Shown here: positions 5,941 through 7,979 of the stretch, one piece after another
Layout of the letters: each line of letters starts with the position of its first letter
Position numbering within the stretch: the stretch's first letter is position 1
Assembly (NCBI GenBank): GCA_021776055.1
Contig: JAJFGP010000004.1
Location: 1-57,500 of the forward strand
DNA length: 57,500 nucleotides
Direction: 5' to 3'
From: Kiloniellaceae bacterium
GTDB lineage: Bacteria > Pseudomonadota > Alphaproteobacteria > Kiloniellales > J153
Translations under genes and position numbers: made by a program
The notes under the pieces: generated by a model
Databases searched by the model: none
What the model saw: only the letters and a program-made list of their open reading frames with translations
Told to the model about the DNA's origin: nothing

Positions 5941-7515
5941 TCATGCCGACAGCGCGGCCGGAGCCGTCCTCTGGCGCTTGAGCAGCAACTTGTTCAAGGC
6001 GTTTACGTAGGCCCGGGCGGACGCAACCAAGGTATCGTGATCGGCCCCCTGGCCATTGACCGTCCGGCCTTCCTCTTCCAGGCGCACCGTCACCTCGGCC
6101 TGTGCATCCGTGCCCTCGGTAACCGCATGAACCTGATAGAGCTGCAATTTCGTCTGGTGCGGGAAAATCTCCCGGATCGCCGAAAAGACGGCGTCCACGG
6201 GCCCGTTGCCTTCGGCTGTCGCCTTTTGCGTCTGCCCATCGACTTCCAGCTCCAATTCAGCGGTCTGCGGCCCTTTCGAGCCACATACCACCTGTAGGGA
6301 CAGGAAGCGGATGCGATCGTTCGTGCGCACCACGGAATCATCGATCAGGGCCAGGATATCCTCGTCGAAGACATCCTTCTTGTGATCGGCCAGGTCCTTG
6401 AAGCGTTGGAAGGCGTCCTCAAGGGCATTGTCCGACAGATCCGGATACCCCATTTCGGCCAGCTTTGCCTTGAAGGCATGGCGGCCGGAGTGCTTGCCCA
6501 TGACCAGGGTCGACTGGGTGAGGCCCACCGATTCCGGGGTGATGATCTCGTAGGTTTCGGCATTCTTCAACATGCCGTCCTGATGGATGCCCGACTCATG
6601 CGCGAACGCATTGGCGCCGACGATGGCCTTGTTCGGCTGCACGGTAAAGCCGGTAACGGCCGAGAGCAGGCGCGAGGCCTTGGTGATCATCTCGGTCTTC
6701 ACGCCGGTATGATAGGGCATCACGTCAGAGCGGACGCGCAAGGCCATGACGACCTCTTCCAGCGCCGCGTTGCCGGCCCGCTCGCCGATACCGTTGATGG
6801 TGCACTCCACCTGGCGAGCCCCGGCGCGTACAGCCGCCAGCGAATTGGCGACCGCCAGACCCAGATCATTGTGGCAGTGGACCGACAGAACCGCCTTGTC
6901 GATGTTCGGGACACGATTGCGCAGCATCTCGATTAAGGCAAAGAACTCCTCGGGCACGGTGTAGCCCACCGTATCCGGGATGTTGATGGTCCGGGCGCCG
7001 GCCTTGATGGCCGATTCCACGCAACGGCAGAGAAAATCCTTCTCGGTCCTGGTGCCGTCCTCGGGCGACCATTCCACATCGTCGCACAGGTTGCGCGCGT
7101 ATGAGATGCTGTCGACAACCGCCTGATGGACGGCCTCCGGCTCCATCTGCAGCTTGAACTTCATATGCAGCGGGCTGGTCGACAGAAAGACATGGATGCG
7201 TGGATGTTTAGCCGGCTTCACGGCTTCCCAGGCGCGGTCGATATCCTTCGTGGTCGCCCGCGCCAGGCCGGCAACGGCTGATGTTTTGAGTCGCTTGGCA
7301 ATCTCATGCACGGCCTCGAAGTCGCCGTTCGAGGCGATGGGGAACCCCGCCTCGATGACGTCGACTTGCATCTCTTCAAGAACCGTCGCCACGCGAATCT
7401 TTTCCTCCAGGTTCATCGAACACCCAGGCGACTGCTCGCCGTCACGCAGGGTGGTATCAAAAACGGTGACGCGATTAGCGTCGTTCTCAGCGACTTGTTT
7501 GGTCTCGGCGCTCAT
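5941..7515 (-). CDS. leuA: 2-isopropylmalate synthase
   Basis: LeuA condenses acetyl-CoA with 2-oxoisovalerate, the committed step of leucine synthesis, in the cytoplasm. The 524-residue protein has the DRE-TIM barrel (starting [16 protein letters not shown], with metal-binding HCHNDLGLA near residue 210) and a C-terminal LeuA allosteric domain where leucine binds. The length is typical of the bacterial enzyme. The ATG follows TTGGAGGGAAG, a strong ribosome binding site. Upstream lies an unusual leader with a leucine-rich mini-gene (7609-7746), which suggests control by leucine supply. The gene is on the same strand as ilvB-ilvN-ilvC but is separated from them by a gene on the opposite strand. 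Confidence 0.97.
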
Positions 7516-7569
7516 GGCTCAACTTCCCTCCAAATTCCGGTAACCGGTTTCAGCTCGGTTCTTCTGTCA

Positions 7570-7617
7570 TGCCCCTGATCGCTTGCCGCACACGTGCGGC
7601 TGCCGCGCTCAGGGGCA
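7570..7617 (-). promoter_or_regulatory. Nested hairpin of the leuA leader (putative attenuator)
   Basis: The outer arms TGCCCCTGA (7570-7578) and TCAGGGGCA (7609-7617) are exact complements. Inside them GCCGCAC (7585-7591) pairs with GTGCGGC (7594-7600). The 5' arm on the minus strand overlaps the stop codon and last two codons of the leader peptide, so a ribosome at the end of the peptide would keep the hairpin open. No T run follows, so control could be translational instead of by termination. The minus-strand run CTCCTCC at 7629-7623 is complementary to the GGAGG of the leuA ribosome binding site. Confidence 0.5.
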
Positions 7618-7746
7618 CCTAAGGAGGAGAGCCTTGTCGCCGGTAATGGGGGAATGGCCGAGAGACAGCAACCGCACATGCGCGTATGCCACGGCCGCCT
7701 TGGCGGTCATGGGCAGATACGCATTATGTTCGGCCGTTCTCGGCAT
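7609..7746 (-). CDS. Putative leucine-rich leader peptide of leuA
   Basis: A 45-codon open frame from ATG 7746 to TGA 7609 lies in the leuA leader. It carries VRLLSLG and then ends ALLLRCP-stop, with three adjacent leucine codons (CTC CTC CTT, 7629-7621) directly before the nested hairpin. This layout matches leucine leader peptides described in alphaproteobacteria. Later in-frame starts (ATG 7710, GTG 7692 or 7677) are possible, and none has a strong ribosome binding site. Translation is not proven; the position of the leucine codons is the main evidence. Confidence 0.45.
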   Translation of the reverse strand: MPRTAEHNAYLPMTAKAAVAYAHVRLLSLGHSPITGDKALLLRCP

Positions 7747-7979
7747 GGTTTGCTAACCTGAGTTCGCGTCCTGTGCCAAGCTTCGCCTGCCAACGGCCTG
7801 CGGAAGCTCGGGAAACCATAGTCTTATCTACCCTCGCAGGGAATGGTTAACAATACCTAACTTTCCCCACCAATACCAAGTCTCGCTAGTATTGACCCAT
7901 ATCATGGTGGCGATTTGCCACTAGATGCGAAGCTGCGCGGCGTTTAGGGTTTTGGAGAATCTACCCACGGGAGCGGACG
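7747..7979. other. Intergenic region between the leuA leader and the hemerythrin gene
   Basis: This divergent spacer should hold the start sites for leuA (minus) and the hemerythrin gene (plus). On the minus strand, TTGGTA and TATTGT (18-base spacing, about 7875-7846) and TTGTTA with TAGATA (17-base spacing, slightly downstream) are weak promoter candidates for leuA. On the plus strand TTGACC at about 7895 has no convincing partner. I see no gene, repeat or RNA in it. Confidence 0.3.

Follow-up and report, generated by a model that had tools for sequence, protein, structure and literature searches.

How does a leader peptide with a run of leucine codons act on leuA if the hairpin that follows it lacks the T run of a terminator? 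In Escherichia coli and Salmonella, leuL works by transcriptional attenuation, with a U-run intrinsic terminator at its end. The present locus lies in a 57,500-nucleotide stretch of contig JAJFGP010000004.1 from a Kiloniellaceae bacterium (hereafter the window), where leuA, encoding 2-isopropylmalate synthase, is read from the minus strand. An earlier note on this DNA had proposed that a ribosome stalled at the leucine codons frees the leuA start, i.e. attenuation of translation rather than of transcription. We compared this leader with its relatives across the Alphaproteobacteria and weighed that proposal against the alternatives.

Results

Layout of the leuA leader

The architecture that the earlier note had described was borne out in detail (Table 1). 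The 45-codon frame is present on the minus strand (translation MPRTAEHNAYLPMTAKAAVAYAHVRLLSLGHSPITGDKALLLRCP, then stop), its leucine triplet is separated by only three bases (AGG) from a hairpin closed by nine pairs, CTCCTCC (7629-7623) is complementary to the GGAGG of leuA (within GGAGGG, 7531-7526), and no T run follows the hairpin (7569-7550). The bounds originally given, 7561-7746, contain the leader, but they are too narrow for the element as a whole, which reaches the Shine-Dalgarno sequence and start codon of leuA (7515) on one side and the inferred promoter (7853-7825) on the other.

Table 1. Features of the leuA leader region in the window.
Feature	Positions	Strand	Basis or remark
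Inferred promoter of leader and leuA	7825..7853	-	-35 TTGTTA 7853-7848, 17-bp spacer, -10 TAGATA 7830-7825
Leader ORF, 45 codons, ends ALLLRCP-stop	7609..7746	-	Sequence; start codon kept in the window's family
Second, upstream anti-Shine-Dalgarno stretch TTCCCCCA, can pair with 7531-7524	7647..7654	-	Family consensus structure
Anti-Shine-Dalgarno strand GGCTCTCCTCC, overlaps leucine codons	7623..7633	-	Minimum-energy fold and own-species complementarity
Control codons CTC CTC CTT	7621..7629	-	Final CTT (7623-7621) is the near-invariant position
Conserved hairpin	7570..7617	-	Outer arms 7617-7609 and 7578-7570; fold and comparison
Inner helices of hairpin	7607-7605/7582-7580 and 7600-7595/7590-7585	-	
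leuA Shine-Dalgarno sequence GGAGGG	7526..7531	-	Sequence; predicted paired with leader
leuA, 2-isopropylmalate synthase, 524 aa, regulated gene	5941..7515	-	

The outer arms of the hairpin, TGCCCCTGA and TCAGGGGCA, are perfectly paired over 9 bp, and the Pro codon and stop codon of the leader ORF form part of the 5' arm. GGAGGG sits 10 nt upstream of the leuA ATG, and TCCTCC (7628-7623), which is part of the leucine codons, is complementary to it. In the minimum-energy fold, GGCUC/UCCUCC (7633-7623) is paired with GGAGGG...GAGCC (7531-7526 and 7520-7516), with the predicted leader:leuA helix (GGCUC:GAGCC) reaching the base that precedes the ATG. The folding energy of the leader was 3.55 standard deviations below that of dinucleotide shuffles. 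Rfam release 15 gave no gathering-score match to the leader and none at E values up to 5 within 7480-7850.

The genes ilvB, ilvN and ilvC adjoin leuA in the window. Although ilv attenuators have been described in this class, we rejected an attenuator at ilvB, since a search of the window found no leader ORF with Ile, Val or Leu codons there, the only structure before ilvB being a T-run terminator directly behind miaA, which consists of a GC-rich hairpin and its T7 run (12304-12228, minus strand).

Occurrence of the element upstream of leuA

Comparison of leuA upstream regions from the window's order and from named alphaproteobacterial genomes yielded a common block before leuA, consisting of leucine codons, CTTANNN, GCCCCTGA, a variable inner hairpin, and TCAGGGG. 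A covariance model of this element (R1), built from 61 sequences, matched 120 of 385 genomes drawn across the Alphaproteobacteria, almost always once per genome. Where a close leuA was present, 113 of 185 alphaproteobacterial genomes had a match and ~39% did not. Nearly all fetched matches lay directly upstream of leuA; in two loci a cupin gene intervenes between element and leuA, and in two the leuA is of type 2. In the window's genome, the leuA site is the only significant sense-strand match; a match on the opposite strand of this site is a reflection of its palindrome. The element is class-wide and leuA-specific, not a local curiosity.

In the two type-2 loci (L179 and L190), the element stands ahead of a yeast/actinobacterial-type 2-isopropylmalate synthase that is ~29% identical to LeuA of the window. 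Here, either the gene may have been replaced beneath an unchanged switch or the switch itself transferred. The leader of Sinorhizobium meliloti, whose leuA is also of type 2, ends SLLLLGLIRGCRVR and stop.

Coding frame and control codons of the leader

Of 120 non-redundant leaders, 97.5% had a leader frame that stayed open for 20 codons or more, compared to 72% and 58% for the other frames; the leucine share of the final 25 codons was 21% in the leader frame and 5% and 9% in the remaining two. The last control codon (codon 0) encodes Leu in 119 of 121 leaders, as CTT in 113, CTA in 6 and CTG in none. Codon -2 encodes Leu in 109 of the 121, with CTT, CTG, CTC and CTA all occurring; this synonymous drift with retention of Leu indicates that the peptide is translated and that leucine is selected. 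Codon -1 is either Leu (60 leaders; 59 CTN, 1 TTG) or Arg (57 leaders; 56 CGA, 1 CGG). Judged by these frame and leucine statistics, the leader appears to be a translated ORF with control codons.

Among the genes of the window, CTT and CTA account for 11% and 5% of leucine codons and CTG for 44%, while CGA accounts for 5% of Arg codons. Theory holds that minority codons at control positions make attenuation sensitive (PMC1183508). The rare CGA, used in 56 of the 57 leaders with Arg at codon -1, may add a slow step beside the control codon. The spacing from CTT to the stem is fixed across leaders, which is what a footprint mechanism requires.

The base after the last leucine codon (position 7620 in the window) is A in nearly all leaders, with codon +1 encoding I, S, R, T or M. 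R1 includes CTTA, such that the conservation of this motif in model-selected loci is partly by construction; however, among leuA-selected loci whose hairpin was located without reference to CTTA, only L056 (CTAA) and L069 (CTTC) deviate (L058, which scored as a chance hairpin, was left out of this check). Neither the peptide nor, within the CGACTTA group, pairing to the Shine-Dalgarno sequence accounts for the conserved CTTA/CTAA. A +1 frameshift at CTTA, by slippage to UUA, was considered as a cause of this conserved A. The +1 frame continues without a stop beyond the hairpin in 82% of leaders and up to the leuA start in 42%, but the CTAA variants would encounter a stop codon at once, and we therefore set the idea aside.

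A conserved hairpin without a terminator-like T run

The hairpin is conserved with compensatory changes, while both the length and the sequence of its inner hairpin and loop vary freely. Across 121 leaders, hairpin arms paired with their own partners far better than with permuted ones (z -12.9), as expected of true arms. In the Phaeobacter stem (CCUCUGAGCG/CGCUCAGAGG), a C-G pair is exchanged for U-A. Pro is lost (CTC-stop) in L035, L038 and the Phaeobacter leader L231, and the stem is kept in these leaders via U-G or U-A pairs; the Paracoccus leader ends LTLR-stop, and its stem sequence differs. The comparison with relatives that the earlier note had recommended thus found both the leucine codons and the hairpin conserved.

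Among 171 homologous leaders, none had a terminator-like T run behind the hairpin. On average, 2.1 T were present in the 10 nt past the stem, and the longest T run within 20 nt was 5, a length reached in three leaders only. An intrinsic terminator is therefore very unlikely, and we rejected it. A pseudoknot between the hairpin loop and the spacer was also rejected for want of covariation support, as own-species sequences had no advantage in 121 leaders (z +0.4 and -1.5, p 0.66 and 0.07).

Covariation of the leucine codons with the Shine-Dalgarno sequence

To assess pairing between the leucine-codon strand and the start region of leuA, we picked 121 leaders for few shared 7-mers and computed duplex energies between the 16-nt leucine strand and the 22 nt before leuA. 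Own-species duplexes averaged -10.1 kcal/mol compared to -8.3 kcal/mol for permuted partners (z -8.6, 0 of 2000 permutations). This own-species gain held when partners were matched for GC content and Shine-Dalgarno strength (Wilcoxon p 9e-6) and was present separately in the LLL and LRL groups. When a window was slid along the leader, the signal peaked at -12 to +3 of CTT (z -7.6), i.e. on the control codons, over a background in neighbouring windows of z about -2, which shows that some residual relatedness or composition effect exists, the covariation tests not being tree-based. Chimeric folds of 5' and 3' halves gave the same picture, with own halves at -13.2 and foreign halves at -9.3 kcal/mol (0 of 5000).

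An additional signal (z -5.1) linked the leucine strand to the stretch 42-22 nt before the start. In permutation tests of the 121 leaders, neither the first leuA codons nor the hairpin loop was supported as a partner of the leucine strand, and pairing with the leuA coding region or the loop was accordingly rejected; most other segment pairs gave no own-species signal either.

Divergent loci follow the same pattern. In L175 and L195, a small cupin-domain gene lies directly before leuA, and the leucine strand fits the cupin Shine-Dalgarno sequence (UCCUAAUC:GAUUAGGA; -10.9 and -9.2 kcal/mol, respectively) rather than that of leuA (-4.5 and -5.9 kcal/mol). The cupin protein of these two loci may be functionally connected with leucine synthesis. 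The hairpin of Paracoccus ferrooxidans is shifted and has an altogether different sequence, yet UCCUUCUUC still pairs with GAAGAAGGA, and in a Rhizobium with a type-2 leuA, UUCCGUUGC pairs with GCAACGGAA. Taken together, the comparative data argue that the predicted pairing of the leucine-codon strand with the leuA Shine-Dalgarno sequence is real and class-wide.

A second predicted pairing partner in the window's own family

Within the window's family, the consensus structure of six relatives pairs the Shine-Dalgarno sequence with a C-/U-rich stretch 24-31 nt before CTT, and both sides of this pairing vary. The stretch corresponds to 7654-7647 in the window, 8-11 codons (about 25 bases) before the leucine triplet. 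Its own versus cross energies in the family were -16.7 and -11.2 kcal/mol, compared to -11.8 and -11.0 kcal/mol for the leucine triplet, which had almost no own-species advantage. The triplet was the stronger partner only in the window's species (-16.6 versus -11.3 kcal/mol for the upstream stretch) and a near-identical sister.

The earlier note had also suggested folding the RNA with the codon region masked. In equilibrium folding with a ribosome masked at CTT, the mean openness of the Shine-Dalgarno sequence rose moderately, from 0.34 to 0.47 over 119 leaders, but the window itself showed no opening (0.14 to 0.15), since the Shine-Dalgarno sequence is then occupied by the upstream C-rich stretch instead. 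According to this model, the upstream stretch would have to be covered by a second, queued ribosome.

Loss of the leucine run or hairpin in close relatives, which had been named as evidence against the proposal, does occur in part, as two members of the family, L006 and L009, lack the element altogether. Both loci retain the promoter and the old leader start codon. The attenuator is deleted in both, with leuA starting at the old leader start codon in L006 and the old leader ORF continuing into the leuA start in L009.

The promoter block is near-invariant in eight leuA loci of the family, including these two. A block of ~40 nt at 7853-7825 (minus strand; GTTAGGTATTGTTAACCATTCCCTGCGAGGGTAGATAAGA) is almost unchanged across the family and persists in L006 and L009, both of which lack the attenuator. 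Transcription would be expected to start near 7818. A palindrome, CCCTGCGAGGG (7841-7831), is located exactly between the inferred -35 and -10 boxes, and the palindrome-bearing block could be a candidate operator of some leucine regulator.

Discussion

At the level of sequence, comparison establishes the coding frame, the control codons, the hairpin, the Shine-Dalgarno pairing and the absence of a terminator. Translational attenuation is the mechanism that best fits the fixed spacing, the minority codons, the stop codon in the 5' arm and the coevolving anti-Shine-Dalgarno strand, and we consider the leuA leader to be, probably, a leucine-responsive translational attenuator. The proposal of the earlier note, translational attenuation and not a terminator, thus gains from the conserved Leu codons, the compensated hairpin, the missing T run and the own-species pairing; it needs amending in that the covarying partner in the window's family lies upstream of the leucine codons, and the switch itself is presumed from this arrangement.

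We infer ribosome stalling, its footprint, the direction of the response and the action on translation as follows. In the default state, a single nested fold would bring together the leuA ribosome-binding site, the hairpin and the end of the leader ORF; within it, the leucine-codon strand (and, in the window's family, also the C-rich stretch just upstream) would mask the leuA Shine-Dalgarno sequence, with leuA being poorly translated as a result. When charged leucyl-tRNA is scarce, a ribosome would pause with CTT, the final leucine codon, in the A site, where its footprint would cover the anti-Shine-Dalgarno strand, the edge of the inner helix and the base of the hairpin and extend into the 5' arm, blocking the structure and leaving the Shine-Dalgarno sequence free. 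When leucine is plentiful, the ribosome would pass, terminate at the TGA within the 5' arm and leave, allowing the structure to close.

The main rival is Rho termination or, more broadly, transcriptional attenuation. In this reading, transcription would halt before leuA either at the hairpin, despite its missing U tract, or through Rho acting on the RNA that is exposed once the leader has been translated to its stop codon, unless a stalled ribosome melts the hairpin or blocks Rho. Such systems usually have this layout, with control codons in a leader peptide and, next to them, a hairpin that has its 5' arm within the footprint of the stalled ribosome, and premature Rho termination needs no T run. 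Nevertheless, the 171 leaders lack a terminator-like T run, and termination would not explain why the leucine strand follows the Shine-Dalgarno sequence of its own species, or that of the cupin gene where this gene comes first, making this explanation unlikely.

Less likely still is a protein-bound element, in which a regulator binds the hairpin together with its conserved flanks and determines whether the Shine-Dalgarno sequence is accessible, with leader translation being secondary. The outer stem and CTTA are more conserved than pairing or coding would demand, with codon +1 being ANN for nearly any residue, and a protein was favoured for the Actinobacteria (PMC1262725). However, the leader frame and the synonymous leucine drift reflect selection on translation, the inner hairpin and loop vary freely, and the Paracoccus stem has a different sequence.

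We regard as highly improbable that the peptide L-[LR]-L-x-x-P-stop arrests the ribosome at Pro-stop in response to leucine or another metabolite. While Pro is C-terminal in 117 of 121 leaders and is directly followed by the stop codon in nearly all, the Pro codon doubles as part of the stem and is dispensable where the stem is kept (L035, L038, L231), residues +1 and +2 vary freely, and Paracoccus does without the motif; on the dispensability of Pro we rejected such arrest. The idea of a translated upstream ORF and hairpin without leucine-specific regulation, to which the losses in L006 and L009 and the ~39% of genomes without a match would lend themselves, is the least probable of all given the class-wide conservation, single copy per genome, leuA-specific position and covariation.

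With translational attenuation as the preferred reading, this leader resembles leuL in being rich in minority leucine codons, in preceding leuA and in having leucine as its signal, but it has no U run and its antagonist pairing is directed at the Shine-Dalgarno sequence. In erm-type translational attenuation, a ribosome stalled in the leader ORF frees a sequestered ribosome-binding site. The proposed mechanism shares this step, although the erm-type signal is an antibiotic acting on the ribosome together with the nascent chain, not a missing aminoacyl-tRNA. Closer in phylogeny are the transcriptional attenuators trpL/trpE of S. meliloti and ilvL/ilvBN of Caulobacter, reported in PMC10117765 and PMC4117421, which belong to the same bacterial class and likewise have leader peptides with control codons but act by termination. 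In term searches of these papers, leuA was absent from the S. meliloti study and leucine from the Caulobacter study (PMC10117765, PMC4117421).

The closest counterpart is the LEU element upstream of actinobacterial leuA, a computational prediction by Seliverstov et al. in 2005 (PMC1262725). Its mechanism was left open, and a binding protein was suggested because the effects of leader-peptide mutations at Streptomyces coelicolor leuA, as reported there, were inconsistent with classical attenuation (PMC1262725). Both elements target leuA, carry a leader peptide with a leucine run and lack a terminator; in both, the leucine codons and the leuA Shine-Dalgarno sequence form the base stem, and the hairpin starts two codons past the last leucine codon. 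They differ in the stem, which is CCCCTGA/TCAGGGG in the alphaproteobacterial element and of the CGCGGCG type in the actinobacterial leaders compared here. They also differ in the stop codon, which in the former lies within the 5' arm, exactly four codons past the last leucine codon, and in the latter further on. The pseudoknot described for the LEU element is without covariation support in the alphaproteobacterial set.

Two actinobacterial leaders, L232 from Nonomuraea and L234 from Microbacterium, read CTCCTTCTTAGCTGCCGC and CTTCTTCTTAGCTGCCGC and match the alphaproteobacterial CTCCTTAGCTGCCCC. R1 matched them weakly (E 0.0012 and 0.0021 in 17 kb), the stems differ, and they share CTTAGCTGC beside the leucine run with the alphaproteobacterial leaders. 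By analogy, the alphaproteobacterial element would work like the LEU element and be a variant of that kind, a likeness by which we do not claim common descent. We raise, as a tentative idea to which we give slightly less than even chances, that a single kind of leucine switch without a terminator, either ancient or spread horizontally, is common to Alphaproteobacteria and Actinobacteria. In this switch the control codons would be the anti-Shine-Dalgarno strand, the sensing ribosome would unmask the gene, and the strand would coevolve with the start of any gene that happens to follow it, be it a cupin gene or a distant leuA isozyme.

Neither a leuA leader nor leuA regulation was found described for Alphaproteobacteria in the open-access papers searched, and a 2010 comparative paper by Lopatovskaya and colleagues (doi 10.1134/S0026893310010164), which PMC4833913 cites for mechanisms overlapping the ribosome-binding site, could already include one.

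If our reading is correct, a large share of the Alphaproteobacteria, a class that includes Sinorhizobium, Methylobacterium and many other studied bacteria, controls leucine synthesis by a ribosome that unmasks the Shine-Dalgarno sequence and not by termination. The natural loss of the attenuator in L006 and L009 would be worth a physiological comparison. The switch predicted in Actinobacteria would extend to a second phylum, the leucine-codon/Shine-Dalgarno stem postulated there in 2005 would gain support from an independent set of covarying sequences, and the question of the actinobacterial mechanism would become testable in tractable hosts.
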